Source: Nitrososphaerota archaeon (GTDB taxonomy: Archaea > Thermoproteota > Nitrososphaeria > Nitrososphaerales > Nitrosopumilaceae). Taken from it: 64,000 bases of DNA. Under the pieces are notes generated by a model. It saw only the letters and a program-made list of their open reading frames with translations. It had not been told where the DNA came from and searched no databases. Positions 3,197 through 36,264 of the stretch are shown piece by piece. The stretch's first letter is position 1. Each line of letters begins with the position of its first letter. The DNA lies in contig JAGWHF010000010.1 in the NCBI GenBank assembly GCA_028866895.1, positions 1 to 64,000 of the forward strand. Reading direction: 5' to 3'. The position numbers were made by a program, and so were the translations under genes.

Positions 3197-3646
3197 GGTA
3201 TAATACAATGAAATTCCCAAGGCAACAATTGCAGCTAACTTTAGTTCTAATCCATGAAACGGAAATAATGCCAATGCCCCGCTCAAACCAAAGACACCAA
3301 GAAAAGGGGCAGTACAAACAGGACATCCTGATGCTACTACACCAGTGAATGCACTACATGCACTAGAGTCTGCTCCCTTTTTGAAACCCAGACTCCCTGT
3401 CATTTGTTTTCTGCAAAGAATCAATGCTGTGTTCAATCCTGTTAGTATTGCTATGATAAATCCCATGGTAACAGTAGTGACAGTGAAGGGTACACCGTAC
3501 ATCTGGATGTATTTTGGCAATGGAGTTGGTGTAAAATTAAACGTAAGCGACCAAAAGAGTGCACCCAGTGATATCGAAATTATGACCGCAGTAATGGCAT
3601 CGGTTGGTCTTTTCAAAACTTGCCCAACAGGACTCATGTTACTCAT
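3164..3646 (-). CDS. Cys-containing multi-pass membrane protein
   Basis: 160 residues with about five hydrophobic segments. The central stretch SSACSAFTGVVASGCPVC (about residues 93-110) places four cysteines at and within a membrane helix, followed by a conserved-looking APFLGVFGLSGAL. The cysteines suggest metal transport or thiol-disulfide exchange across the membrane. The gene overlaps the end of the thioredoxin gene by 4 bp and forms an operon with it and with the small Cys-rich protein at 4021-4182, all divergent from the HxlR regulator at 4241. No named family recognised. Confidence 0.6.
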   Translation of the reverse strand: MSNMSPVGQVLKRPTDAITAVIISISLGALFWSLTFNFTPTPLPKYIQMYGVPFTVTTVTMGFIIAILTGLNTALILCRKQMTGSLGFKKGADSSACSAFTGVVASGCPVCTAPFLGVFGLSGALALFPFHGLELKLAAIVALGISLYYTSKNVKIACKM

Positions 3647-12613: not shown

Positions 12614-15121
12614 CTATACAAGAGGCCTGTCATCCTCTGAGGGCTCGCTCAGGATTGTGGCCTCTCCTCCTGTAATTCTCTTTAGGATCTCAGAGGCTGC
12701 CTTCTTGTGTAGGTACTCATTGTTATTGCCGCACCTGTAGGAAAATGTGCAGCGCGGGCAGCCTGCCTCGCTGGCGCACGGGCATTCCATTACTATGTCG
12801 AGACTGCGGTCAAACGCCTTTTCGAGTCTGTCGTACAGCGCCCTGCTTGCCCCGTTTCCGCCAATCGCCGAATCATAGACAAATATGAGGCCAGAAGTGC
12901 CAAGGGATATACCTCCTAGGTCTTGAGATACTCCGCCTGTTATCATGTTGCTCCCTTCTATGACTAGGTGTTCGGTTGCATGATATCCGCTTGCCTCTGT
13001 GTAATCGCCGTTTTCAGATCCCTCAGCTTCATCGATTGGTCTTGGGGCCTTGAATACTAGGCCCTTTGTTATGAAATCATAGTCAAGAGGACTTTCGAGC
13101 AGGACCTTCTGGCCCTGTGTTACGTCGTGCCCAAGTTCGATATTGGCATATCCGTAAACGCGTTTTTGTATGTGCATCTTGCAGAATGCAACTTCTATCC
13201 CATTGACGCGACGTTTTTCATAGGTGTGCTCAATTGTAGGCCATTCCTCAGTAAGCGCCTTCGTATAATACGGATAATCACGTGGGAGCGTTTCCAACCT
13301 TGCTGTGAGGCTCTGTGGATAGCCGAGTTCCTTGACGCGGTATCTTGTCCCCGCAAGAAAGTAAACTGCCGACGGGTGGAGTTCTTCCAAGGCGATGGGC
13401 AGAACCCTCTCACCCACCTTTTTACCGTTGAAAAAAATGTCCACAGATCTGCCTATCCCCCTTATGCTATAGCTTTCAAGAAGATCTTTTGCATGCTCCA
13501 TGTTGGGGACGTACCGGTTCTCAAGCTGGACCAGGTTTCCTGCCGCAAGGTGCCTGCTTATCACCTCAGAGTGTTCACCGAGCTCATGCTTTGCAACAGG
13601 CTTGTCGCATGCCATGGCAAGTACTTGGAACTCTTCAACGAAGGGATTTTTTGGGTCGATGTAGACCTGTTCGATGTCCTCGAAATAGTCTCCGGGATGA
13701 TTCTTGTAGTACTGTGATATGGGATCATTTCCCAGTACCAAGAAGGCGTATCCGTCCTGGCCCTTTCTTGCAGCCCGCCCGATCCTCTGGACCAGCCGGT
13801 TTACCGGGATTGTAGAAGAGATCACGCCGTCCACGTTACCTACATCAATCCCAAGCTCTAGCGTGGGAGTGGCTGAAATTGATGAAAGCTTGCCGCTTTT
13901 GAACAGGGATTCTACCGACTTCCTGTAGTTTGCCATCAGGCCTGCCCTGTGCACCTTGATGTCTATCTTTCTTCGTCTTGCTTGTAGGGCCAGCAGCTCT
14001 GAATTGAGATGGGAGTTGCTAAAGACCAGTGTTTTGTGATTCCGGGAGGTCAGGTTCTTCAGGATGTCCACCATCAATGCACGCTGACCAACAAGAGAAG
14101 GGAACAGCATGCTAAACTCTATCTTCCCCCTCTTTCCAGACCCTGCAATCTGTGCCATCTCCACTCCAAAGAGGTCCTGGCAGAATGTTAGGGCGTTTTC
14201 AAGGGTGGCCGATGAGGCTACAAATTGGAGGCGGGGGCAGATTCTTTTCATTCTCTTGATGATGTAGTGGACGTTAGAGCCAAAGATTCCGGAATACACG
14301 TGGGCCTCGTCCACCGCCATGAACCTAACGGAACTTAGCAATGACGCAAATCTTGTCCTGTGCCATAGGTGGTAATGCAGTACATCAAAGTTTGTAATCA
14401 GGATCTCGGGGGGCTCATCTACGATCCTCCTCCGTTCATCCTCCTTGGTATCGCCATCAAAAACTGCGGTTTGCAGGCCGACTTTTTTTGACATGTCCAT
14501 TATCTTGGGATGTTGGTCGCGGGACAGTGACTTGGTGGGGTAGACAAAGAGAGCTTGAATCTTGTCGCGGTGCGAGGAATCAGATATTTTCTGGAGAATT
14601 GGTATGACAAAGGCCTCTGTCTTCCCCGAGGCAGTGGGGGCAGTTATGACAACGTTTCTGCCAAGCATGATCTCCCTTATGGCGTCCTCCTGGAATTTGT
14701 AAAAATTTGAAATTCCTTTTTCCACCAGGGTAGAGCACAGGCGGTCGTCAAGCCCTGATTCATCGACTGCAACCCCCATCTCGGGCTCGGGGTCTTCTAT
14801 AATCCTAAAGTTCGAGACAAAGTGCCTCTTGGAAAACAAGACTGACCTTGTAATCTCTGAGATTTTCTTCTTTCCGATCATCTTCCTGATTTCCTCCTCG
14901 CTCCGGACCAGCCCCTCCTTTTGCAGGTGGTCGTGGGACTCGTTGCAGGTGGGGATGTTTCCACCGTCAAACTTTAACAGGAACTCAAGGTATGCCTCGT
15001 CAAGATTCTTCCTGTAGTCTATTAGGTCTTCTATCTTGCACTTGGTGCAACTGAACAGGATTTTCTGATTGAAAGTCTTTTGAACCTCTATCTTAGACTT
15101 GCACTTGGGGCATGTTTGCAA
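12614..15121 (-). CDS. DEAD/DEAH-box helicase of the MrfA/Hrq1 type with zinc sites at both ends
   Basis: 835 residues. N-terminal zinc ribbon (CPKCKSK...CTKC), then superfamily 2 helicase motifs: APTASGKTEA (motif I, about 160), VYPTKSLSRDQ (Ia), AVDEAH (II), SSATL (III), TPTLELGIDVGNVDGV and RIGRAARKGQDG (V/VI). The C-terminal region ends in a four-Cys cluster CPCASEAGCPRCTFSYRC, the mark of the DUF1998/MrfA-like domain. MrfA and Hrq1 relatives act in repair of bulky or crosslinked DNA. The N-terminal ribbon is an addition not found in all members. Cytoplasmic, probably monocistronic. Confidence 0.9.
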   Translation of the reverse strand: MQTCPKCKSKIEVQKTFNQKILFSCTKCKIEDLIDYRKNLDEAYLEFLLKFDGGNIPTCNESHDHLQKEGLVRSEEEIRKMIGKKKISEITRSVLFSKRHFVSNFRIIEDPEPEMGVAVDESGLDDRLCSTLVEKGISNFYKFQEDAIREIMLGRNVVITAPTASGKTEAFVIPILQKISDSSHRDKIQALFVYPTKSLSRDQHPKIMDMSKKVGLQTAVFDGDTKEDERRRIVDEPPEILITNFDVLHYHLWHRTRFASLLSSVRFMAVDEAHVYSGIFGSNVHYIIKRMKRICPRLQFVASSATLENALTFCQDLFGVEMAQIAGSGKRGKIEFSMLFPSLVGQRALMVDILKNLTSRNHKTLVFSNSHLNSELLALQARRRKIDIKVHRAGLMANYRKSVESLFKSGKLSSISATPTLELGIDVGNVDGVISSTIPVNRLVQRIGRAARKGQDGYAFLVLGNDPISQYYKNHPGDYFEDIEQVYIDPKNPFVEEFQVLAMACDKPVAKHELGEHSEVISRHLAAGNLVQLENRYVPNMEHAKDLLESYSIRGIGRSVDIFFNGKKVGERVLPIALEELHPSAVYFLAGTRYRVKELGYPQSLTARLETLPRDYPYYTKALTEEWPTIEHTYEKRRVNGIEVAFCKMHIQKRVYGYANIELGHDVTQGQKVLLESPLDYDFITKGLVFKAPRPIDEAEGSENGDYTEASGYHATEHLVIEGSNMITGGVSQDLGGISLGTSGLIFVYDSAIGGNGASRALYDRLEKAFDRSLDIVMECPCASEAGCPRCTFSYRCGNNNEYLHKKAASEILKRITGGEATILSEPSEDDRPLV

Positions 15122-15214
15122 TGGAAAAAGGTGGGGAGTAGGCTGATTTAATTTTTAATCGTAACCAAGATAAGAGCCGAGGTCAAACCTTTATGTGGGA
15201 AAATTACAACTTCT

Positions 15215-16108
15215 ATGTTGGAAGTACTGGTAACGGGTGCGGGCGGATTTATCGGTGGGAGGCTTGTTGGCAGGCTTGTTCAAAGAGATGACTCGGTTAG
15301 CGCCCTTTTGAGGGGGAAGGAAGGGTACGAAATGGGGGCAAGAATGGTGAAGGGAGATCTTACCATTCCGGATTTTGAGTTAAAGGACGTCCCCTGTGAA
15401 GTTGTATATCATCTGGCTGCGGTCTGGCCTGGCGAAAAGAACAAGAAAATCCAGAGGAGAATAAACTACGACGGCACGGTAAACCTTTTCAGCAAGATAA
15501 GGGACAAGGCAAAGTTTTTGGTATATGTATCAGGACTTGGCGTCTTTGGGGACACGAAGGGCAAAATGATTGACGAGGATACTCCGCTAAATCCGGGGAC
15601 CGAGTATGCTAGAATCAGGCTTGAAGCGCAGGAATTCCTTAAGGAGAACTGCAGTAAGTGCGGGATTTCCTTCTCAGTTGCGTATCTTGGAGATGTATAT
15701 GGAAATGGTGGTTGGTTCAGGTCCATGATGGTGGAGAGGATAATGAGAAACTCGTTTAGAATTCTGGGAGATGGGAAATACTACCGTAGCTTCATACATG
15801 TGGAGGATGCCGTATCCGCGCTAATCTCGATTGCAGAAAAGAATCAGAAAGGCCAGTCCTTTGTCTTGACTGATTCTAATCCTGTCGCTTTTTCAGAATT
15901 CGTAAATTTTGTGTGTTCCAGGTTGGGCAAGGATGTGCCGGGAACAATACCGGCATTTATTGCAAGACCGTCTCTTGGATCAGACTTTGTGACACTGCTT
16001 ACGACATCGACAAGGGCCTCAAACTCCAAGATGCTGAAAATGACCTCATTATCCTTCCCATCATACACGGACGGTGTGGAATCGGTCATGGCGGAGATGC
16101 GTCCCTGA
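15215..16108 (+). CDS. NAD-dependent epimerase/dehydratase family protein (extended SDR)
   Basis: 297 residues. Nucleotide-binding loop VTGAGGFIGGRL at the N-terminus, YHLAAVW near 75, and the active-site segment YVSGLGVFGDTKG followed by EYARIRLEAQ. The usual YxxxK catalytic pair appears here as YxxxR, so catalysis may be altered. The C-terminal half is SDR-epimerase like (SFIHVEDAVSALISIAEK). Substrate unknown; nucleotide sugar or sterol-like oxidoreduction are typical for the family. A TATA-like CTTTATG lies about 25 nt before the ATG at 15215. Confidence 0.8.
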   Translation: MLEVLVTGAGGFIGGRLVGRLVQRDDSVSALLRGKEGYEMGARMVKGDLTIPDFELKDVPCEVVYHLAAVWPGEKNKKIQRRINYDGTVNLFSKIRDKAKFLVYVSGLGVFGDTKGKMIDEDTPLNPGTEYARIRLEAQEFLKENCSKCGISFSVAYLGDVYGNGGWFRSMMVERIMRNSFRILGDGKYYRSFIHVEDAVSALISIAEKNQKGQSFVLTDSNPVAFSEFVNFVCSRLGKDVPGTIPAFIARPSLGSDFVTLLTTSTRASNSKMLKMTSLSFPSYTDGVESVMAEMRP

Positions 16109-16146
16109 TTGGAAACCGATGCTTCCTAGTATGTTGAAAATCCAAG

Positions 16147-16332
16147 TTACTCTGCCTCCGTTGACTTTGATGAGTGATCTTCTTCCCATCTCGCCTGCTG
16201 CCTAAAAATGGCAAGTAATTGTATCATTATGCGGGATTGCTCAAGCATGAGACCGAGGGCTTTCTTCCGCTCTGATTCTTTTGGAACGATGATCGTCTGA
16301 CTAGGAACAGTGTCGAATATAATATGCGCCAT
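16147..16332 (-). CDS. small hypothetical protein
   Basis: 61 residues from ATG at 16332: a short beta-like start (HIIFDTVPSQTIIVPKE), a basic amphipathic helix and an acidic Ser-rich tail. It occupies the gap between the epimerase and the methyltransferase and its start overlaps the promoter region of the latter. No family recognised and no good TATA box at the right distance; it may be a real small ORF or chance. Confidence 0.35.
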   Translation of the reverse strand: MAHIIFDTVPSQTIIVPKESERKKALGLMLEQSRIMIQLLAIFRQQARWEEDHSSKSTEAE

Positions 16333-16345
16333 TTCCTACCTTTTT

Positions 16346-17041
16346 GTGGGACTTGGAAGCACTTGGGGTCAGGTACTTGACGTTCTTGAAGATATAATCC
16401 CTGTTTACGACCGTGTCAATTCGTTCATCTCCCTAGGAAAGGACTTGGAATTTAGGGAACGCGGGATTCGAGGAAGGGTGCACAGGGGAGACAAGATCCT
16501 TGACGCAGGTTCTGGTTTTGGTAATATGTCAAAGACGGCAATGAGGATGTGTGAGGACGACCTGAGTGTGACACTTTACGATCCTCTCCAACCCATGTTG
16601 AAAAATACCGGAAGGCTGTTTGCAAAGGCTCCAGATTTGTCCTGCGGAGTCTTTGAACATATGCCATTTAGGGATGATACGTTTGATGCTGTTCTTTGCG
16701 GGTATTCTCTCCGGGACGCAATCAGCCTTCGCATAGCGATAAGCGAGGTACATAGGGTCTTAAAACCGGGAGGCAGGTTTGTGATCGTCGACTTGGGAAA
16801 GCCGGATGATGTTCTTATCAGGGCGGGGGTATCATTCTACCTTCGTACTTTGCTGCCTGTTATAGCCATGGTTGCAGGTGGAAAATTGGGCCTGAAATTT
16901 GCCGCTCTCTATGATACATACAAGCTTTGGCCGCAAAACGGTGATCTGAAGGCGCTTTTGCTTGAAAAATTTTCGCGCGTGGAATTTGATACGGGGTTGC
17001 TTGGCGGTGCCGCCATTGTTGCCTGCTACAAGCGGGTCTAA
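16346..17041 (+). CDS. class I SAM-dependent methyltransferase, UbiE/MenG-like
   Basis: About 231 residues from the GTG at 16346. Motifs of the UbiE/COQ5 family: PVYDRVNSFISLGKD, SAM-binding DAGSGFGNMSK (motif I), FRDDTFDAVLCGYSLRDA and HRVLKPGGRFVIVDL. Methylates a small lipid-like substrate, perhaps a quinone precursor. I prefer 16346 because an AATATAATA box (about 16315-16323) sits about 26 nt before it; the GTG at 16310 would lie before that box. C-terminus LLGGAAIVACYK is typical of the fold. Possibly followed by tatA in the same transcript. Confidence 0.85.
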   Translation: MGLGSTWGQVLDVLEDIIPVYDRVNSFISLGKDLEFRERGIRGRVHRGDKILDAGSGFGNMSKTAMRMCEDDLSVTLYDPLQPMLKNTGRLFAKAPDLSCGVFEHMPFRDDTFDAVLCGYSLRDAISLRIAISEVHRVLKPGGRFVIVDLGKPDDVLIRAGVSFYLRTLLPVIAMVAGGKLGLKFAALYDTYKLWPQNGDLKALLLEKFSRVEFDTGLLGGAAIVACYKRV

Positions 17042-17098
17042 AGCTTTAATTTCGGAAACTGCCAAAATGAGGCATTGATTGAATACTCTCTTACCATT

Positions 17099-17431
17099 AT
17101 GGGCAACGATTGGATAGTGATAGCATTCGTAGCCCTATTGATGCTGCTTGGGACAAAGCGGATGCCGGAGGCTTCCAGAAAGATCGGCAAGATAGTGGGG
17201 GAATTTAACAGGACAAAAAATACGGTGCACAATGAGATTCAGAGGGCAAAAGGCGAGTTTAGCATCCCAATAGAGGGTCCTGCCGCCTCGGAAAGGCAGA
17301 AACTCGAGTTTTTGGCAAAAAACCTCGGAATAGATTGCGTAAATAAAACAGACGAGGATCTGAGAAATCAAATTTCTTCAAAGCTCGGAGGGAACGATGT
17401 GGGGCAAAATACGGGTCAGTCTGCGAAATAA
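17099..17431 (+). CDS. tatA: twin-arginine translocase subunit TatA/TatB-like
   Basis: About 110 residues from ATG at 17099. One N-terminal membrane helix (WIVIAFVALLMLLG) followed by the hinge TKRMPEASRKIGKIVGEFNR, the signature of TatA/TatB, then a charged tail ending in a small helical domain. Part of the Sec-independent export pore for folded proteins. The longer TTG start at 17075 adds eight residues before the helix and is less likely. The C-terminal tail (about 65-110) is longer than in minimal TatA and contains a single Cys. Confidence 0.85.
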   Translation: MGNDWIVIAFVALLMLLGTKRMPEASRKIGKIVGEFNRTKNTVHNEIQRAKGEFSIPIEGPAASERQKLEFLAKNLGIDCVNKTDEDLRNQISSKLGGNDVGQNTGQSAK

Positions 17432-17491
17432 GTTGGAGATCAAATCTCAACAAATTTAAATACAATAGCTAGAGAGACATATGGATAGGGT

Positions 17492-18739
17492 TTGACCAAG
17501 ATAGATCCGTGGCAGAATGCGCTCAAACAGCTTGCATCTGCCGCAAAAATTTTGAAACTTGATCCGGGCATCCATGAGATGCTCGCAAGCCCGAAAAAAG
17601 TTCTGACGGTTTCTCTTCCCGTGAAGATGGATGATGGAAGGATAAGGGTTTTCACAGGTTTTAGGTCGCAGCACAATGATTTCAGGGGTCCCTTTAAGGG
17701 TGGGATAAGATACCACCCTGACGTCACAATCGAGGAAGTAAAGGCACTGTCCATGTGGATGACGTGGAAGTGTTCCATAGTTGATGTCCCATTTGGGGGA
17801 GGCAAGGGAGGGATTATTTGTGATCCGAAGAGGCTCTCAGCAGGAGAAAAGGAAAGACTCACACGAAGATACGCATATGCTATATCGGAGGTAATCGGAC
17901 CTGGAAAGGACATTCCTGCTCCTGATGTCTACACCACGGGGAAGGAGATGGCGGAGATTATGGATGTCTACAGCGTGATGCACGGCCAAGCTGAGCCTGC
18001 TGTAATCACTGGAAAGCCGATACCCATTGGTGGGTCCCAGGCAAGGAATGTTGCGACTGGGCTTGGCGTATCTTACTGCGTACGGGAGGCTGCCAAGAAA
18101 CTTGGACTGAAGCTCAAGGGCGCAAGGGTTGTTATTCAGGGATACGGCAACGCTGGGACGTTTGCGGCCGAGTACATTGAGAAGATGGGCGCAAAGATAA
18201 TTGCGGTAAGCGACTCAAAGGGATCGATTATAAACACAAAGGGACTTGGTGCAAAGAAGGTTCTTGATTACAAGGCAAAGGCTGGAACCGTGGTTGGATA
18301 TCCGGGAAGCAGGAAGATATCGACTGAGGAACTTCTCACCACTCCATGTGACGTACTGGTTCCGGCCGCGCTGGAGAACCAAATCACGCCGCAGATTGCT
18401 AAAAATGTCGATTGCAAGGTTGTTGCAGAGGCTGCAAACGGGCCTACGACACCCGAGGCAGACGAGATTTTACATAAGAACAAGATAATGGTAGTTCCAG
18501 ACATACTGGCAAATTCGGGAGGTGTGTGCATATCGTATCTGGAGTGGGTGCAGAACCTGCAGAGATACTACTGGACTTTTGACGAAGTGGCAGGCAAGAT
18601 GGAGCATCATATAGTCAAGGGATTCAATGATACCTATGCACTCTCGAAGAAGCATGATGTTGACATGAGGAAGGCAAGCATGGTTCTTGCTGTCGGGCGG
18701 GTTCTTGAGGCATACGAAGCCCGCGGCCTTTGGCCTTAG
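17492..18739 (+). CDS. gdhA: glutamate dehydrogenase
   Basis: 415 residues, standard length for archaeal hexameric Glu/Leu/Phe/Val dehydrogenase. Substrate-binding KGGIRYHPDVT, catalytic Lys in GGGKGGI, D in PAPDVYT, and Rossmann loop QGYGNAGTFAAEY (about 210-222). Interconverts 2-oxoglutarate plus ammonium and glutamate, the main ammonium assimilation route when no GOGAT is present. Start is a TTG at 17492 with a TTTAAATAC box near 17453-17461. A short inverted repeat (AGATcaaATCT, near 17438) sits between tatA and gdhA. Confidence 0.95.
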   Translation: MTKIDPWQNALKQLASAAKILKLDPGIHEMLASPKKVLTVSLPVKMDDGRIRVFTGFRSQHNDFRGPFKGGIRYHPDVTIEEVKALSMWMTWKCSIVDVPFGGGKGGIICDPKRLSAGEKERLTRRYAYAISEVIGPGKDIPAPDVYTTGKEMAEIMDVYSVMHGQAEPAVITGKPIPIGGSQARNVATGLGVSYCVREAAKKLGLKLKGARVVIQGYGNAGTFAAEYIEKMGAKIIAVSDSKGSIINTKGLGAKKVLDYKAKAGTVVGYPGSRKISTEELLTTPCDVLVPAALENQITPQIAKNVDCKVVAEAANGPTTPEADEILHKNKIMVVPDILANSGGVCISYLEWVQNLQRYYWTFDEVAGKMEHHIVKGFNDTYALSKKHDVDMRKASMVLAVGRVLEAYEARGLWP

Positions 18740-18879
18740 TGACTAGTCGGTACCCAATATCGTGATTTGAATGGATTTACTGCAAACATGCGGATAATCC
18801 TGGAAGCGAACTTTTCGGTGGCATTATTGTTGTACAGTTAAAACTAATCTGGAATTAAAAATAAGAGTGGAGCGTAAAT

Positions 18880-28221: not shown

Positions 28222-29070
28222 TTATTTTCTCGATTGTAGGGCGTAGTCTATCATCAATGCCGGTATATCTACGCCAGTAACCCTCACGGTATTTTTGTAT
28301 TCCGTCGTGTTGTTAATCTCGTGGACAACGAGGCCGTTTTCCTCGCTTTCCATCAGGTCTATGCCCACTATCTGTCCTTGTACTGCATTTTTTGCCTTGA
28401 TGCAGATGTCTTCCATCTCCTTTGTTACCTTGAATGGCTCGGCCTTGCCGCCAAGTGCCATGTTTGTCTTCCACTGGCCCTCGCCGGAGTATCGATAAAT
28501 AGCGGCTACAACCGTGTCGCCTACCATGATTGCCCTGATGTCGCGGGGAGGACGGTTGACAAGCTCCTCCAGGTAGTAGACTTGGTATATCGGATACATC
28601 TTTTCACGCGTCTCCATTATTCCCTCGGCAGAGTCGCGGTCCTTTAGGAGTGATATCATCCTTCCCCAGCTTCCTACTGTTGGTTTTAGGACCATGGGGT
28701 ATCCTCGCTTTTCCAAATAATTCAGTGCGGCATCCTCTGAAAAAGCAACCGTACTGAAGGGAGTACGAATCCCGTGCTTGAGCAGGAGCATGTGGGTGAA
28801 AAGCTTGTTGCCTGCGTAAATGCTGGTGTTTAAGCTGTTTATCACGTCGACCCCCTTTCCCTCAAGCGCTGCTGTCGAATGCAGGCTGCGATAATAGCTG
28901 ACGCATCTCTGTATTGTGGTGCCAAACTCTTCGACGGTACTGTCTAGGTTGATTGCGAGGCCCCTGCAGTCGACCATCCTAATGTCTACTCCCTTTTTCT
29001 TGCCTGCCTCAAAGAGAGCCTTTTCTTCCCACCTGATGGTATCGTAAAGTATCGATATGCTTGAGCTCAC
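28222..29070 (-). CDS. lysX: alpha-aminoadipate-LysW ligase (LysX)
   Basis: 282 residues, RimK-like ATP-grasp ligase: YPMVLKPTVGSWGRMISLL (ATP lid), PPRDIRAIMVGD, and metal-binding VGIDLMESEENGLVVHEINN. LysX joins alpha-aminoadipate to the carrier LysW. The GTG start overlaps the lysW stop by three bases (the GTGA junction), so the two are translationally coupled. Placement behind homocitrate synthase favours the lysine branch; its paralogue at 34040 lies in the arginine run. Confidence 0.88.
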   Translation of the reverse strand: MSSSISILYDTIRWEEKALFEAGKKKGVDIRMVDCRGLAINLDSTVEEFGTTIQRCVSYYRSLHSTAALEGKGVDVINSLNTSIYAGNKLFTHMLLLKHGIRTPFSTVAFSEDAALNYLEKRGYPMVLKPTVGSWGRMISLLKDRDSAEGIMETREKMYPIYQVYYLEELVNRPPRDIRAIMVGDTVVAAIYRYSGEGQWKTNMALGGKAEPFKVTKEMEDICIKAKNAVQGQIVGIDLMESEENGLVVHEINNTTEYKNTVRVTGVDIPALMIDYALQSRK

Positions 29071-29231
29071 TGGCCCCAGTCCTCACCAACAGTTTGTGCT
29101 GGTTTTAACTCGAAGCCTGAAGGTCCCTTCACTAGCTCGAAACTTGCACCGCAATCCGGGCAGGTGATTATCTCACCCTCCATGGAATCTTTGGGAGGGT
29201 TGATGTTCGCATCACATTCTAAACATTTCAT
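29067..29231 (-). CDS. lysW: carrier protein LysW, variant ending in EDWGQ
   Basis: 54 residues, too short for most ORF lists. Two Cys pairs (CLEC, CPDC) form the zinc ribbon, and the acidic tail ends GEDWGQ. In characterised LysW the last residue is Glu in EDWGE, and its gamma-carboxyl is where the substrate amino group is attached. Here the final codon reads CAG (Gln), followed by TGA. The homocitrate synthase stop lies one base before the ATG, and lysX overlaps the stop. The other LysW of this window (34898) keeps Glu. Confidence 0.92.
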   Translation of the reverse strand: MKCLECDANINPPKDSMEGEIITCPDCGASFELVKGPSGFELKPAQTVGEDWGQ

Positions 29232-29232
29232 G

Positions 29233-30423
29233 TTATTTACCTGTCTTTACCTTCATTTGGGTGTCATTAATTATCTTTCTTTCAAGCCTGTCATCCAGGG
29301 GGATCTCGAGCAGGTCGCCCATCCTTAGGTTCTTCAGGCCGGCAGCCACCTTCTTTGCGTGTTCCTCATCCTGATCAAGCCCGAGAAGCGACATGAGGTA
29401 TGCTGCACCGTTCTTGCCTGCCAGTTCCCCAAAGACTATCTTCCGGCGGTTTCCAACCACCTTTGGTTCGATGGGTTCGTAAGCTGCGGGGTTTCTCAGG
29501 ATGGCGGCAAGGTGGGTTCCTGCCTTGTGCTTGTATGCTGTAGGGCCTACGATTGGCTTTGAGTCATAGGGGACGATCCCGGTGTATTGCTCAATGAGCC
29601 TGGAAAGATCCATCAGCATGTCGAGCCTGAAATTATTTGGAGATTTGTAGAGGTAGGTGAGTGCAACGGCAGTCTCAGCCAGAGCAGGTATTCCTGTCCT
29701 CTCGCCTACGCCATCTATGGTGGTGTGGATCTGGTCGGCTCCTGCATCGCATCCTGCCAGCGCGTTTGCCAGGGCAAGACCTATGTCATTGTGACAATGT
29801 ACGTCAAGCGGCGTCTTGACGTTGTCCTTGACGATTTTGACCAGGTTGTACATACCTATCGGCCTCATTATACCAACTGTATCTGGTATGCTTATCCTAT
29901 CCACGCCGGCATCGGATATCTCCTTGCAAATCTTGATGAGGAATTCCGGGTCAGCCCTGCTGCCGTCCTCAACGGTGAATCTCATCTTGAGGCCGTGGGA
30001 CTTGGCGTACTCTACGGTCTCTATGGCCCTCCGCATGGCCTCCTCTCTTGTTATTCTTAACTTGTCTTTCATATGTATGTCTGAAATGCCCAGATAGGTT
30101 GCCATCCATGAGGCATCGCACTCCAATGCTATGTCGACATCTTCTTTTAATGCCCGCACGTGGGCAACAATGTCGGCCTTTAGACCCTGCTTGAGGATGG
30201 TCTTGGTAGCTTCCTTGTGGTCGGGTGATACTACTGGCGAAATTTCGATCTGATCAACACCGAAATAGTCAAGCATCCATGCAATCTGGATCCTCTGCTT
30301 GTTTGAGAATGTAACTCCGGGATGCTGCTCGCCTTCCCGGAGGGTGCTGTCCAATATCTTGATCTTCTTTGGCTTTGTACCGTTCTCGTTATGCTTGTAA
30401 GCATAGTAATTCGGATCATCCAT
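29233..30423 (-). CDS. homocitrate synthase
   Basis: About 396 residues from ATG at 30423 (MDDPNYYAYK). DRE-TIM aldolase-type acyltransferase: STLREGEQHPGVTFS, substrate-binding ECDASWM, VHCHNDIGLALANALAG (metal His pair) and GVGERTGIPALAE. Carries out acetyl-CoA plus 2-oxoglutarate to homocitrate, the first step of alpha-aminoadipate lysine synthesis. Isopropylmalate synthases are longer and have a regulatory domain that is absent here. A GTTTATATT box at about 30450-30459 is 27-36 nt before this ATG and overlaps a palindrome, suggesting a regulated promoter of its own. Confidence 0.9.
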   Translation of the reverse strand: MDDPNYYAYKHNENGTKPKKIKILDSTLREGEQHPGVTFSNKQRIQIAWMLDYFGVDQIEISPVVSPDHKEATKTILKQGLKADIVAHVRALKEDVDIALECDASWMATYLGISDIHMKDKLRITREEAMRRAIETVEYAKSHGLKMRFTVEDGSRADPEFLIKICKEISDAGVDRISIPDTVGIMRPIGMYNLVKIVKDNVKTPLDVHCHNDIGLALANALAGCDAGADQIHTTIDGVGERTGIPALAETAVALTYLYKSPNNFRLDMLMDLSRLIEQYTGIVPYDSKPIVGPTAYKHKAGTHLAAILRNPAAYEPIEPKVVGNRRKIVFGELAGKNGAAYLMSLLGLDQDEEHAKKVAAGLKNLRMGDLLEIPLDDRLERKIINDTQMKVKTGK

Positions 30424-30445
30424 TGCTACTTTAGTAACAAAATTT

Positions 30446-30508
30446 ACGAATATAAACATATTTGTACAGAATTCGTCTGAATTTGTATTTTTTGTAACGA
30501 ATTTCGTT
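30446..30508 (-). promoter_or_regulatory. operator-like palindromes at the homocitrate synthase promoter
   Basis: Between the Lrp stop and the homocitrate synthase start are two inverted repeats: ACGAATAT-aaac-ATATTTGT (30446-30465, one mismatch, overlapping the TATA box) and AACGAA-T-TTCGTT (30496-30508, perfect). AT-rich palindromes of this kind are the usual targets of Lrp/AsnC regulators. The regulator gene is directly upstream (30539-30958), and a homologue (LysM) controls lysine genes in Sulfolobus. Function is inferred. Confidence 0.55.
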
Positions 30509-30538: not shown

Positions 30539-30958
30539 TTATGAGACAGTCCGTAGTATTATGACTGTATTCGTATCAAAAACGCCTGGCACCTTTCTTA
30601 ATGCGTCTATGCAGGCGTTTATCTCGGTAATGTTTGGTGCGCGAATGACCGTAGCTATGTCGTACTGTCCTGTGATCTCGTATACTGTGTGGACGCCATG
30701 CAGTTTGGAAAGCCTTGCCGAGACCTTGGAGGTGTCGGTGGAGGAGTCGACGGATATCAGAATTATGGCGCTTGTTGAATTGCTATCGCCGGTTTCAATG
30801 GTGAATTTCTTGATGACGCCGCTATCAAGGAGGTTTTTTACCCTTCTCCTCACCGCAGATTCGGAAAGCCCGAGCCTCTGGCCTATCTCAACAAAAGACT
30901 GCCTCGAGTCCTTCTTTAGCATCTCCATTATCGTCTCGTCTGTTTTGTCCCTAGACAT
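30539..30958 (-). CDS. Lrp/AsnC-family transcriptional regulator (LysM-like)
   Basis: 139 residues: N-terminal winged helix (DKTDETIMEMLKKDSRQSFV, GLSESAVRRRVKNLL) and C-terminal RAM ligand-binding domain (SARLSKLHGVHTVYEITGQY). By position, directly behind lysJ (8-bp overlap) and before the homocitrate synthase promoter palindromes, it is the likely amino-acid-sensing regulator of the lysine/arginine genes, comparable to LysM of Sulfolobus. Lysine or arginine as ligand is inferred from context only. Confidence 0.88.
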   Translation of the reverse strand: MSRDKTDETIMEMLKKDSRQSFVEIGQRLGLSESAVRRRVKNLLDSGVIKKFTIETGDSNSTSAIILISVDSSTDTSKVSARLSKLHGVHTVYEITGQYDIATVIRAPNITEINACIDALRKVPGVFDTNTVIILRTVS

Positions 30959-32126
30959 TTCGTCTCTGCTCCTCCTTTGTCATTATCATATCCAAAGTTT
31001 CTAAACTTTTGTTAATGTCGAACTCTGAGATTACCAGGGGCGGAAGCAACCGCAGGATGTTCTTTCCTGAATATAGCAAGAGAAGATTGTTGGCAATGCC
31101 GTCAAACAAAATATCCCTTACTTCAAACTTCATCTCTACGCCAATCATTAGTCCCTTGCCGCGAACCTCGCGGATTATTTTGTGCCTCTCCTTTAGCCGG
31201 ATCAATCCCTCGATGAACAGTCTTCCCATTTTTGAAGCGTTTTCCACCAAGCCGTCTTCGGTAAGGGCCTGGATGGTGGCAACTCCTGCTGCGCACGATA
31301 GCGGGTTTCCTCCAAATGTAGACGACTGTTCGCCTTTTCCTATGCACGCAAGAATATCGGGCTTGACCAGGGTGGCGCCCATTGGAACCCCTCCAGCGAT
31401 CCCTTTTGCAAGGCACATTATGTCTGGTGTAGTTTCCCAGTGCTGACCGGCCCATAGCTTACCTGTCCTCCCAAGGCCGGCTTGAATTTCGTCGAAAATC
31501 AGTACGACCCCGTTCTGGTCACACAACTTTCTTACCTGCTGCAGAAAGCCGTCGGGGGCCACGTGGATTCCGCTTTCTCCCTGTATGGGTTCGAGTATGA
31601 TTAGGGCCGTATCGGAGTCTATTGCAGATTTTAGTGCCTCGATGTCTCCAAACGGGGTAAATGCGACATCGGAAAGTAGGGGCTCAAAGGGCTTGCGGTA
31701 TTTTTGATTGAATGTTACTGATAGGGAACCGAAAGACTTTCCATGGTATGAACCGTTCATAGCTATCATTTTCTTCTTTCCTGTAAACTTGCGTGCAAAC
31801 TTCAGGGCGGCCTCCACGGCCTCGGTACCGCTGTTGTTCAGGTATATCTGGCTGAGGCCTTTGGGGGCGGCTTTCATGAATCTATCAAGGAATTCCTCTC
31901 TGGTCTTGTTGTAAAGGGAACTGTGTACTGTGATTATCTTTTCTGCCTGCTCTCTTATCGCCTTGACCACCCGGGGATTGCAGTGGCCTACGAGCGCGAC
32001 TCCGTAGCCTCCCATGCAGTCGATATACTCCTTGCCGTTGACATCCCATACGTGGGACCCAAGTCCGCGTTCTATGGTCACTGGAAACCTCTGGTAGATA
32101 TTTCCCATGAATTGATCTTCTGTCAT
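30951..32126 (-). CDS. lysJ: [LysW]-aminoadipate semialdehyde/glutamate semialdehyde aminotransferase
   Basis: 391 residues, class III PLP aminotransferase: NNSGTEAVEAALKFAR, GSYHGKSFGSLS, LIFDEIQAGLGRTG and the PLP Lys in CLAKGIAGGVPMG (about 255). Uses glutamate to aminate the carrier-bound semialdehyde. Single copy in the cluster, hence probably acts on both the lysine and the ornithine intermediates, as LysJ does in Sulfolobus. Overlaps lysZ upstream by four bases and the Lrp gene downstream by eight. Confidence 0.92.
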   Translation of the reverse strand: MTEDQFMGNIYQRFPVTIERGLGSHVWDVNGKEYIDCMGGYGVALVGHCNPRVVKAIREQAEKIITVHSSLYNKTREEFLDRFMKAAPKGLSQIYLNNSGTEAVEAALKFARKFTGKKKMIAMNGSYHGKSFGSLSVTFNQKYRKPFEPLLSDVAFTPFGDIEALKSAIDSDTALIILEPIQGESGIHVAPDGFLQQVRKLCDQNGVVLIFDEIQAGLGRTGKLWAGQHWETTPDIMCLAKGIAGGVPMGATLVKPDILACIGKGEQSSTFGGNPLSCAAGVATIQALTEDGLVENASKMGRLFIEGLIRLKERHKIIREVRGKGLMIGVEMKFEVRDILFDGIANNLLLLYSGKNILRLLPPLVISEFDINKSLETLDMIMTKEEQRRNV

Positions 32127-32923
32127 CTTGATATCACCGTACAGTTGTCGTTAGAAATTGCTTTGGATATTGGGTTTTCCCTTTGGCCGTTTGCAACAAG
32201 GGCCTGTTTTACCCCCATTTCTATGGCTTCGGTTGCCGCAAGTATCTTCTTTTCCATTCCGAAACCTATCTTGGGAATGATGGCTTTGGCCTCGTCAAGG
32301 GAGAGTTTTGTTACGAGCTTGTCGTCCATGAGTAGGCCATCAACGTTGGTGAGGAACAGGATCTTGTCCGATTGCATCTTGCCTGCTACGTAGGCAGCGG
32401 CTCTGTCTCCGTCAACGTTGAGGAAATCTGACTCTTCGCTTATGGCAATGGGTGAGATTACTGGGACGTAGCCGTTATTGAGGATAATCTCTATGAGGTT
32501 GGAATTGACATCATGAATTTTACCGGTATATCCGCCGTCTATTATCATCTTTCGGCCCTTCTCATTCATTACGATTAATTTTTTTTTCCTTTCGGCTTGG
32601 ATTATCCTGCCGTCTATTCCTGATAAACCCACCGCATTAATGCCGTTCTTTTGGAGCATGCCAACTATCATTTTGTTTATCTTTCCTGACATGACCATGG
32701 TAAAAATCTCAGCGGTCTCCTTGTCTGTGTACCTGCTTTTGATGCCCCCGGGTGATACTATGAATTTCTGTTCCTTGCCAAGCGCCTCGGATATCCGGGT
32801 GACTTCTTTTCCTCCCCCGTGGACCAAAATTACCTTTTCCTGTTCGGCGACTTTTTTTAGATCTGAGATTGTCGAGGGATGGAGGCCGTCTACCACACTT
32901 CCGCCTATCTTTATTGTTATCAT
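32123..32923 (-). CDS. lysZ: [LysW]-aminoadipate/[LysW]-glutamate kinase
   Basis: About 266 residues from ATG at 32923 (MITIKIGGSVVDG); the longer frame overlaps lysY. Amino-acid kinase family: KIGGSV, LVHGGGKEVTRI, VNAVGLSG-like NAVGLSGIDGRI, LNVDGDRAAAYVA and VDGLL. Phosphorylates the gamma or delta carboxyl of the carrier-bound amino acid. In this cluster only one kinase exists, so it is taken as bifunctional for lysine and arginine synthesis. Confidence 0.92.
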   Translation of the reverse strand: MITIKIGGSVVDGLHPSTISDLKKVAEQEKVILVHGGGKEVTRISEALGKEQKFIVSPGGIKSRYTDKETAEIFTMVMSGKINKMIVGMLQKNGINAVGLSGIDGRIIQAERKKKLIVMNEKGRKMIIDGGYTGKIHDVNSNLIEIILNNGYVPVISPIAISEESDFLNVDGDRAAAYVAGKMQSDKILFLTNVDGLLMDDKLVTKLSLDEAKAIIPKIGFGMEKKILAATEAIEMGVKQALVANGQRENPISKAISNDNCTVISR

Positions 32924-32927
32924 CTCT

Positions 32928-33980
32928 TTACACTGGAGTGAGGGGAGAATATGTGAGGCCATCCATCTCGTTAAAGCCGGCCATGACGTTCATGTTTTGT
33001 ATGGCAGAGCCTGCAGCACCCTTCATGAGGTTGTCTGAGGCTGAAAGTACTACCAGTCTGTTGTTATCTTCGTCAATGTCGAACCCGACATCGCAAAAGT
33101 TTGACCCTACGACGAACTTTGGATCCGGGAACTTGTAGAATCCTTTCTTGTCGCGGATAAGTCTGATGAATTTCTCATTCTGGTATTGTTCACGATACAT
33201 TTTCCATAGATCCATCTCGGTTACTTCCTTTGTAAGAAACGTATGGTTCGTGCAGAGGATACCTCTGACAATGTCCACCGCATGGGGACTCATTGAAACC
33301 TTTATCTTCTTGCCCGCAGCTTGGCTTAGTTCCTGCTCTATTTCTCCCGTATGCCTGTGTTTTGCAGGCTTGTAGGGCCTGATGACTCCTGACCTCATGG
33401 CATGATGGGTGCCGGCTTCTGAGCCTGCTCCAGCTCCCGAAGATCCTATCTTGGAATCAACGATGATGTGTTCGGTATCGATGATTCCCTTCTTTACAAG
33501 CGGATAGAGGGCAAGTATTGAAGTGACTGCCATGCATCCGGGACAGGACACAAGCTGTGATTTCTTTATCTCCTCTCTATGCAGTTCCGGTACTCCGAAG
33601 ACTGACTTTGGGAGGTAGTCTGGATGGGTGTGGTGCCAGCCGTACCATTTGTCGTAGTCTGACGCATTATGTAGCCGGTAGTCCGCACTCAAATCTATTA
33701 TCTTCATGCCCCTGTCATATAGCTCTTTTACTATCTCTACTGCGGTACCATGGGGTACGGAGGTAAATACCAAGTCGCACTTGTCAGACAACCTGTCATA
33801 GTTTAACTCCGAAAAGGTGAGATCAGTAAAACCCTTAAGGCTTGGCTGAACTCGTGAGATGTATTCCCCGACATACTGTCTAGAGGTGACGGCGGAAATT
33901 TCCACCTTGGGGTGACTAACAAGCAGACGGAGGATCTCTCCACCCACATAACCTGACGCGCCAATTACTCCTATCCTCAT
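32928..33980 (-). CDS. lysY: [LysW]-aminoadipyl/glutamyl phosphate reductase
   Basis: 350 residues: NADPH loop GVIGASGYVGGEILRLL, catalytic Cys in VSCPGCMAV (about 147-155), and His in SPHAVDIVRGI. Homologue of ArgC/LysY, reducing the acyl phosphate to a semialdehyde while the substrate remains on LysW. Ends four bases before lysZ. A 59-bp gap separates it from argX, the largest gap inside the arginine run. Confidence 0.92.
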   Translation of the reverse strand: MRIGVIGASGYVGGEILRLLVSHPKVEISAVTSRQYVGEYISRVQPSLKGFTDLTFSELNYDRLSDKCDLVFTSVPHGTAVEIVKELYDRGMKIIDLSADYRLHNASDYDKWYGWHHTHPDYLPKSVFGVPELHREEIKKSQLVSCPGCMAVTSILALYPLVKKGIIDTEHIIVDSKIGSSGAGAGSEAGTHHAMRSGVIRPYKPAKHRHTGEIEQELSQAAGKKIKVSMSPHAVDIVRGILCTNHTFLTKEVTEMDLWKMYREQYQNEKFIRLIRDKKGFYKFPDPKFVVGSNFCDVGFDIDEDNNRLVVLSASDNLMKGAAGSAIQNMNVMAGFNEMDGLTYSPLTPV

Positions 33981-34897: not shown

Positions 34898-35065
34898 TTA
34901 CTCTCCCCAATCTTCGCCTACTTTCTCAGCATGTTTCAATTCGTATGTGGTGCCGTTCTTGGAGGCAATTTCGAAGTCTGCCCCGCAATCAGGACATGAT
35001 ACTATCTCTCCAACACTTGCGTCGTCTGGAATTTTTAATTTTGCATCACATTCTGGACAATTCAT
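34898..35065 (-). CDS. lysW: carrier protein LysW (EDWGE end)
   Basis: 55 residues from ATG at 35065 (the upstream TTG-type extension overlaps argG and is not needed). CPEC and CPDC zinc pairs, acidic strand, and the terminal GEDWGE whose Glu is the attachment point for the substrate. Sits between argG and argX, both adjacent without gap (stop of lysW is followed at once by the argX ATG). Differs from the LysW at 29067 in its last residue. Confidence 0.93.
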   Translation of the reverse strand: MNCPECDAKLKIPDDASVGEIVSCPDCGADFEIASKNGTTYELKHAEKVGEDWGE

Positions 35066-35076
35066 TCTTTGATCTC

Positions 35077-36264
35077 TCACCTCTTTCTTAGTAATTTATT
35101 AGCTTCTGTTGACTGGAGGCCCCATAATTCTACAAATCCCTTTGCCAGGGTCTGGTCGAACGTAGAGCCTGCGCCATATGTTGCTAAATCATGACTGTAC
35201 AGCGAATATTCCGACTTCCTTCCAACTACTCTTAGACTTCCCTTGAACATTTTTAGTTTGACGGTTCCGCTAACTCTCTTTTGAGACGCATTGATAAACA
35301 TATCTAAATCAGTTCGTAGAGGATCCTGCCATAGCCCGGAATATGCAAGCCATGCCCATTCGGAATCCACCATGGCCTTGAATCTTAGCTCGTGTTTTGT
35401 GAGGACCATCTTCTCAAGGTCTGTATGGGCCTCGATCAGGCATGACGCGGCAGGCGTCTCGTAAACTTCCCTGGATTTTATTCCTACAACTCTGTCCTCG
35501 ATGTGATCGATTATCCCTACGCCGGAAGCCCCCGCCTTTTTGTTAAGATGCGCAATAAGATCTACCGGCTTCATGGGCTTGCCGTCCGCCTCGATTGGAA
35601 CTCCCTGAATGAACTTTATGGTGACGTACTGAGGCCTGTCGGGCAGATTCCTTGTCCTGACCCAGATAAAGGCGTCATCGGGAGGCTCTTCAAAGGCATC
35701 CTCCAACTCGCCGCCTTCTATGGCCCTACCCCATAGGTTTTGGTCGATGCTGAACCTCTTGGCAGCCGTTTCTATGGGAATTCCATGCTCTTTTGCAAAC
35801 TTTATCTCTACATCCCGGGTGAGATTTAGGTCGCGTATTGGTGCAATTATCGGGAGGCCGGAGCCTGATCGCATTGTAACATCGAATCTTACCTGATCGT
35901 TTCCCTTGCCGGTGCAGCCATGTGCAAGTGCTTGGGCGTTTTCCTTTTTGGATATCTCCACGATCTTTTGGGCTATGAGGGGACGTGCAAGAGCTGTCGC
36001 AAGGCAGTATTTTTTTTGATAGAGGGCGTTTGCCTTGATGGCTGGTAGTACAAAGTTATCGGCAAACTCCTTCTTGGCATCTATATTGTAATGCCTTACG
36101 ACGCCAAGTTTCTTTGCCTTTCGGGAAATTTTTTCTAGGTCGTCTCCCTGCCCGACATCTACCGTGACGGTAACTACATCCAAGCCGTGCTTCTCTTGCA
36201 GGTATTTTATTACAACTGATGTATCCAATCCTCCAGAGAAAGCCAAAACTGCCTTTCCATTCAT
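35077..36264 (-). CDS. argG: argininosuccinate synthase
   Basis: 395 residues. ATP pyrophosphatase loop AFSGGLDTSVVI at the N-terminus, VDVGQGDD, HGCTGKGNDQVRFD and the citrulline/aspartate binding core (FSIDQNLWGRAIEGG). Condenses citrulline and aspartate to argininosuccinate. First gene of the argG-lysW-argX-lysY-lysZ-lysJ-lrp run. An AT-rich box CATAAAAGA is about 30 nt upstream, and an inverted repeat lies between it and the ATG. Confidence 0.95.
   Translation of the reverse strand: MNGKAVLAFSGGLDTSVVIKYLQEKHGLDVVTVTVDVGQGDDLEKISRKAKKLGVVRHYNIDAKKEFADNFVLPAIKANALYQKKYCLATALARPLIAQKIVEISKKENAQALAHGCTGKGNDQVRFDVTMRSGSGLPIIAPIRDLNLTRDVEIKFAKEHGIPIETAAKRFSIDQNLWGRAIEGGELEDAFEEPPDDAFIWVRTRNLPDRPQYVTIKFIQGVPIEADGKPMKPVDLIAHLNKKAGASGVGIIDHIEDRVVGIKSREVYETPAASCLIEAHTDLEKMVLTKHELRFKAMVDSEWAWLAYSGLWQDPLRTDLDMFINASQKRVSGTVKLKMFKGSLRVVGRKSEYSLYSHDLATYGAGSTFDQTLAKGFVELWGLQSTEANKLLRKR

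Follow-up and report, generated by a model that had tools for sequence, protein, structure and literature searches.

In most ammonia-oxidising archaea, and repeatedly outside them, the carrier protein LysW ends in Gln rather than in the Glu that is regarded as its defining, reactive residue. One of two things follows: these organisms make lysine and arginine by way of an undescribed deamidation step, an independent parallel to the activation of Pup, or the chemistry of their carrier departs from the accepted one.

Two Carriers with Different Ends in the Lysine/Arginine Cluster

The window, that is, the whole stretch of 64,000 nucleotides that was analysed (contig JAGWHF010000010.1 of assembly GCA_028866895.1, from a Nitrososphaerota archaeon), carries on its minus strand a run of genes read from position 36264 to 27088 in the following order.

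35077-36264, minus: argG, argininosuccinate synthase (name from sequence and place only)
34898-35080, minus: argW, second carrier, ends EDWGE (GAG TAA); NF041070, 89.7 bits
34040-34897, minus: argX, second ATP-grasp ligase (family-library scan)
32928-33980, minus: lysY, reductase (family-library scan)
32123-32962, minus: lysZ, kinase (NF010662)
30951-32126, minus: lysJ, aminotransferase (family-library scan)
30539-30958, minus: Lrp/AsnC-type regulator (name from sequence and place only)
29233-30459, minus: homocitrate synthase, lysS-type (family-library scan)
29067-29231, minus: lysW, alpha-aminoadipate carrier protein, 54 aa, ends EDWGQ (CAG TGA); NCBIfam NF041070, 82.7 bits
28222-29070, minus: lysX, ATP-grasp ligase, GSWGR motif and conserved ATP-grasp residues intact; TIGR02144, 326 bits
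27088-28218, minus: lysK, [LysW]-lysine/ornithine hydrolase (M20 family); best solved relative 5xoy, a [LysW]-lysine hydrolase

A sequence-only reading of the window had pointed out that LysW ends in Gln and ArgW in Glu, and that both are intact zinc-ribbon proteins, and this proved correct on both counts. The 3' end of lysW on the minus strand reads GAG GAC TGG GGC CAG TGA (VGEDWGQ*), with the terminal Gln codon CAG at 29072-29070 and the stop codon TGA at 29069-29067. Both carriers retain the zinc-ribbon cysteines (C3, C6, C24, and C27 in alignment numbering) and exceed the cut-off of 75 bits of the archaeal carrier model NF041070 (carrier_LysW_Arch), and both fall below the cut-off of 53.2 bits of the LysW equivalog TIGR01206 (27.2 bits for LysW and 43 bits for ArgW). 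LysW shows the linkage to lysX, lysZ, lysY, lysJ, and lysK that characterizes the carrier family; in place of the C-terminal EDWGE of that family, in which Glu is the ligation site, it has EDWGQ. When the assembly of the window was searched with LysW, the only carriers found were LysW and ArgW, a third match (E 0.59) lying inside a longer unrelated frame.

In the systems that have been studied, the C-terminal Glu accepts the amine of the substrate at its gamma-carboxyl (PMC10433800). The chemical puzzle raised by the sequence-only reading is thus real, since a gamma-carboxylate is just what Gln lacks. Standard LysW chemistry is assumed in a metabolic model of Nitrosopumilus (PMC6038301), and the string EDWGQ was not found in a text search of the literature, from whose scope subscription papers mostly fall out.

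Conservation of the Terminal Gln Codon

The comparison of the LysW C termini of relatives that the sequence-only reading had called for revealed a Gln conserved in family f1. Among the 80 nearest public loci, which are labelled Nitrosotalea, Nitrosopumilus, Nitrosarchaeum, or less precisely named Thaumarchaeota/Nitrosopumilales and all encode a LysW of the window type, the terminal codon of lysW specifies Gln in 79, always as CAG, and the single Glu-ended lysW is that of a Nitrosopumilus (L061). The idea that the Gln reflects a sequencing or assembly error, or a pseudogene, could appeal to the estimated contamination of the assembly (2.8%), but it is refuted by the recurrence of the codon in closed genomes and in all but one of the 80 independent relatives, and we give it practically no weight.

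The GTG start codon of lysX begins on the final base (29070) of the lysW CAG codon, so that the two genes overlap by 4 bases, as had been noted. We considered that this overlap might force the Gln; the explanation was rejected because relatives with GAG TGA (L061 and G078) keep the identical overlap. The overlap may still account for the choice of codon. CAG makes up 25-37% of the Gln codons in neighbouring genes, and yet it is used for every terminal lysW Gln that overlaps lysX; CAA, commoner nearby, was not observed there, plausibly because the lysX overlap fixes the third base. A CAA codon would turn the lysX start into ATG, and only GTG occurs in the window (29067-29084) and the homologous loci. 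This use of GTG suggests that lysX is selected to have a weak and coupled start.

Distribution of EDWGQ Carriers

Across the 400 genomes of the class, EDWG[E/Q] was detected in 367 and EDWGQ in 263, with a pattern whose stop wobble also accepts TGG, so that single matches can be false; one such case is a second match in G070, which reads CAGTGG and has no stop codon. All 263 EDWGQ genomes belong to families f1, f2, and f3 (290 genomes), and none was found in the 110 genomes of the remaining families of the class. AmoA (PF12942) is present in 249 genomes of the class, distributed over f1, f2, f3, and one f5 genome. Within the class, therefore, EDWGQ lies inside the ammonia-oxidiser families, where Gln is the normal state of LysW and is also taken by ArgW in some members.

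A restriction of EDWGQ to ammonia oxidisers, which held within the class, was rejected by a wider scan of the phylum, in which EDWGQ recurs in families f32, f37, f55, and f58. Apart from one match (G427), these loci are true carriers and mostly adjoin homologues of lysX, lysZ, lysY, and lysK; they include the LysW-Gln of a closed genome of 1,297,538 bp (G517). For Ignicoccus hospitalis, the genome paper describes lysine synthesis by the aminoadipate pathway (PMC2614490).

Natural Exchange of Glu and Gln

Related genomes differ in the combination of the two ends. The arrangement of the window, LysW-Gln with ArgW-Glu, is also that of G082; the swapped one, LysW-Glu with ArgW-Gln, occurs in G115, G343, and G185; both carriers end in Gln in G072, G109, G121, G264, G248, and G328; and both end in Glu in G078, G260, G137, and G112, which likewise belong to ammonia-oxidiser families. 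Family f1 strongly conserves both LysW-Gln and ArgW-Glu, with few exceptions. Two genomes of one f1 genus (G037 and G142; loci L228 and L249) encode a second, unusual carrier that also ends in EDWGQ, so that Gln on both carriers arose in f1 too. Contrasts within a genus were also found in distant Thermoproteota (Gln in G517 versus Glu in G482; Gln in G509 and G529 versus Glu in G455 and G489), together with one between relatives of the same genus or family (Gln in G414 versus Glu in G461). A quick tree of LysY plus LysZ from 43 clusters, in which some forks are open, implied at least six changes of the end residue of LysW and at least two of that of ArgW. As far as their genes tell, Glu and Gln carriers behave as functional alternatives.

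Some closed genomes contain Gln carriers only: G109 has two, and G070 and G093 have a single LysW-Gln, without ArgW, that adjoins both argX and lysX. In soil relatives, either both carriers end in Gln or one Gln carrier is shared. The Gln carriers must therefore function. The sequence-only reading had offered as one option that LysW-Gln is a decoy or regulator and that ArgW-Glu carries both pathways. Sharing of a carrier is possible in principle, given that lysX persists in a closed f1 genome (G133) from which lysW has disappeared, leaving ArgW-Glu as the sole carrier; but genomes with two Gln carriers, or with one shared Gln carrier, hold no Glu carrier at all, which refutes the decoy as a general answer and leaves it highly improbable.

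Loci of family f3 (L174 and L175, from G070 and G093; L187 and L212, from G343 and G202) show that some genomes of the family have lost argW and that argX too is missing from some of the clusters, as in G202, which has one carrier. There, lysine and arginine synthesis would share a single LysW-Gln and perhaps also a single ligase. In G133, the place of lysW between the homocitrate synthase gene and lysX (L209, about 3430-3610) is taken by a GC-rich short repeat that translates as RRRRRAAEGREGGA....

Enzymes Acting on Glu and Gln Carriers

We looked for residues of the pathway enzymes that follow the exchange. The conserved ATP-grasp residues are kept in LysX and ArgX whether the partner ends in Glu or in Gln, and the GSWGR motif is kept in nearly all of these ligases, three ArgX reading GSWGK. 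No conserved LysX position tracks the swap within f1, within f3, or across all ammonia oxidisers, although a few variable positions do; the comparison of ArgX is weaker, its Gln and Glu sets coming largely from different families. The sole strong signal, LysX alignment position 4, was discarded, because it precedes the start codon and reflects the overlapping codon of lysW in the frame of lysX. Co-adaptation of the ligase to Gln was accordingly rejected, and the final substrate presented to the ligase is probably the same with either carrier. No residue at a conserved position of LysK tracked Gln versus Glu, in a comparison whose Glu-only side consisted of four genomes. Between ammonia oxidisers and other families, LysK, LysZ, LysY, and LysJ showed a few fixed differences, none of them in a recognised catalytic motif.

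These results bear on a direct use of the Gln amide, in which LysX would either exchange the amide nitrogen for the amine of the substrate or activate the amide oxygen with ATP to give an amidine, hydrolysis restoring Gln. Such a chemistry would account for the conservation of Gln itself in f1 with no extra enzyme. We know of no LysX that uses a Gln amide directly. Activation of the Gln side chain by ATP has been proposed for Dop with PupQ (PMC8599861). Nevertheless, Glu and Gln carriers pair with ligases that have no distinguishing residue, although the two chemistries would differ, and we consider direct use of the amide quite improbable.

The cluster showed no additional gene with a deamidase-like role, and two known enzymes were dismissed as the general agent: the Dop family (PF03136) had no member in 35 archaeal genomes, mostly closed and nearly all with Gln carriers, and CheD, a known Gln deamidase, was missing from 24 of the 35, including the Gln-only G070 and G093.

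Restriction of the Carrier End to Glu or Gln

Carriers were also collected by profile searches in which the last residue plays no part, in sets of 26, 19, and 80 genomes. Every carrier read in the first two sets ended in Glu or Gln. In the set of 80, a script recorded 61 EDWGE and 4 EDYGE ends, with one locus counted twice, and two more EDWGE were read by hand; the exceptions were a weak relative that ends differently (L321), a weak match that is itself no clear carrier (L320), and an unreadable locus (L265). Hence no ending other than EDWGE, EDYGE, or EDWGQ was seen among the clear carriers of these searches, which covered one phylum. At least eight changes have taken place, and yet the Lys, Ala, Asp, His, or other ends that an unconstrained side chain should have produced are absent from the clear carriers; the terminal side chain thus seems to need a gamma-carbonyl, at least in the sampled phylum.

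This restriction speaks against attachment at the alpha-carboxyl, another option of the sequence-only reading and the main rival of the explanation that we prefer. The C-terminal Gln would use its alpha-carboxyl to form an ordinary peptide bond with the substrate, and LysK would work as a carboxypeptidase. As the alpha-carboxyl is present with Glu and with Gln, a swap without a change in the ligase follows at once, and the interchange is explained equally well. LysX scores strongly with TIGR00768, the model of the RimK family of alpha-L-glutamate ligases, and the M20 relatives of LysK include carboxypeptidases. RimK ligases, which are related to LysX, join glutamate to alpha-carboxyls. With alpha-attachment, however, the side chain should vary freely, and clear carriers end only in Glu or Gln; in species that combine a Gln with a Glu carrier, one set of downstream enzymes, at least within the cluster, would face bonds of two geometries; and the studied systems use the gamma-carboxyl, the E54A exchange in a haloarchaeal ArgW causing arginine auxotrophy (PMC10433800). 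We therefore regard alpha-attachment as unlikely. The broader proposition that Gln is kept and used as such, in an alpha-linked or amidine-linked cycle and with two attachment chemistries coexisting wherever a species has both a Gln and a Glu carrier, is less likely than not.

LysW-Gln as a Putative Pro-carrier

Of the four options offered by the sequence-only reading, error and decoy thus fall, and deamidation and alpha-attachment are left; the comparative evidence favours deamidation. We propose, with about even confidence, that LysW-Gln is a pro-carrier that undergoes one deamidation to Glu and is then used and recycled normally, LysK being the likeliest deamidase. LysW-Gln would be a functional carrier synthesised in an amidated, inactive state, and the side chain of its C-terminal Gln would be hydrolysed once to Glu after translation. 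LysX or ArgX would then join alpha-aminoadipate or glutamate to the gamma-carboxyl, as in the studied LysW systems, the bound amino acid would be processed by LysZ, LysY, and LysJ, and LysK would cleave the gamma-amide, so that lysine or ornithine is freed and LysW-Glu can be charged again. Since this hydrolysis would regenerate LysW-Glu, one deamidation per carrier molecule would be enough. We infer deamidation before charging from the swap without enzyme change, the strict Glu/Gln identity of the end, and the single cluster of downstream enzymes for both carriers. LysK itself is the candidate agent because the gamma-amide that it would hydrolyse at each turn has its smallest counterpart in the side chain of Gln, and, by analogy, because Dop both deamidates Pup and cleaves its conjugates.

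Two observations weigh against the pro-carrier. Quick deamidation would make Gln and Glu nearly neutral and free to drift, and yet f1 keeps each in its place, so that something selects Gln; the amidated form may matter for kinetics or quality control, or LysX and ArgX may discriminate between the carriers. In addition, no LysK signature sets the Gln genomes apart from the small number that are Glu-only; this agrees with a built-in activity but does not positively support it. M20 hydrolases normally release an amino acid rather than ammonia, which also counts against LysK as the deamidase. The Gln-only genomes, the natural swaps, and the close relatives with Glu or Gln make the question directly testable.

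Comparison with Known Carrier Systems

The carriers of the window share with the known ones (LysW of Thermus, Sulfolobus, and Thermococcus; ArgW of Natrinema) the zinc ribbon, the EDWG motif, and the linkage to an ATP-grasp ligase with an intact GSWGR motif, a kinase, a reductase, an aminotransferase, and a hydrolase. In contrast, the known carriers end in Glu, whose gamma-carboxyl is the attachment site, and the LysW of the window ends in Gln. RimK-type alpha-L-glutamate ligases belong to the same ATP-grasp family as LysX (TIGR00768) and, through their use of the alpha-carboxyl, are the model for alpha-attachment.

Contig C95 of the same assembly, which is either archaeal or contamination, encodes two PF03136 homologues of the Pup ligase and Dop (14016-15581 and 16179-18821). 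Between them lies an ORF of 136 aa (15754-16164) that ends in GVGSGQ, a Pup-like arrangement with a C-terminal Gln, and that matched no Pfam family; the pair adjoins genes for a tyrosine recombinase and a plastocyanin-like protein.

The Pup/Dop system differs from LysW in several respects: fold, ligase, and hydrolase are unrelated, Pup tags proteins whereas LysW carries amino acids, and no Dop homologue is present in the 35 archaeal genomes tested. Pup is a precedent in form for the feature at issue. Its gene specifies Gln in some Actinobacteria and Glu in others, and Dop both deamidates Pup and cleaves its gamma-linked conjugates (PMC8599861, PMC8223512). Pup and LysW are both small proteins whose genes encode a C-terminal Gln or Glu according to species, and Pup is ligated through the gamma-carboxyl of Glu; the same alternation of Gln and Glu at the C terminus of homologous carriers is present in LysW and ArgW.
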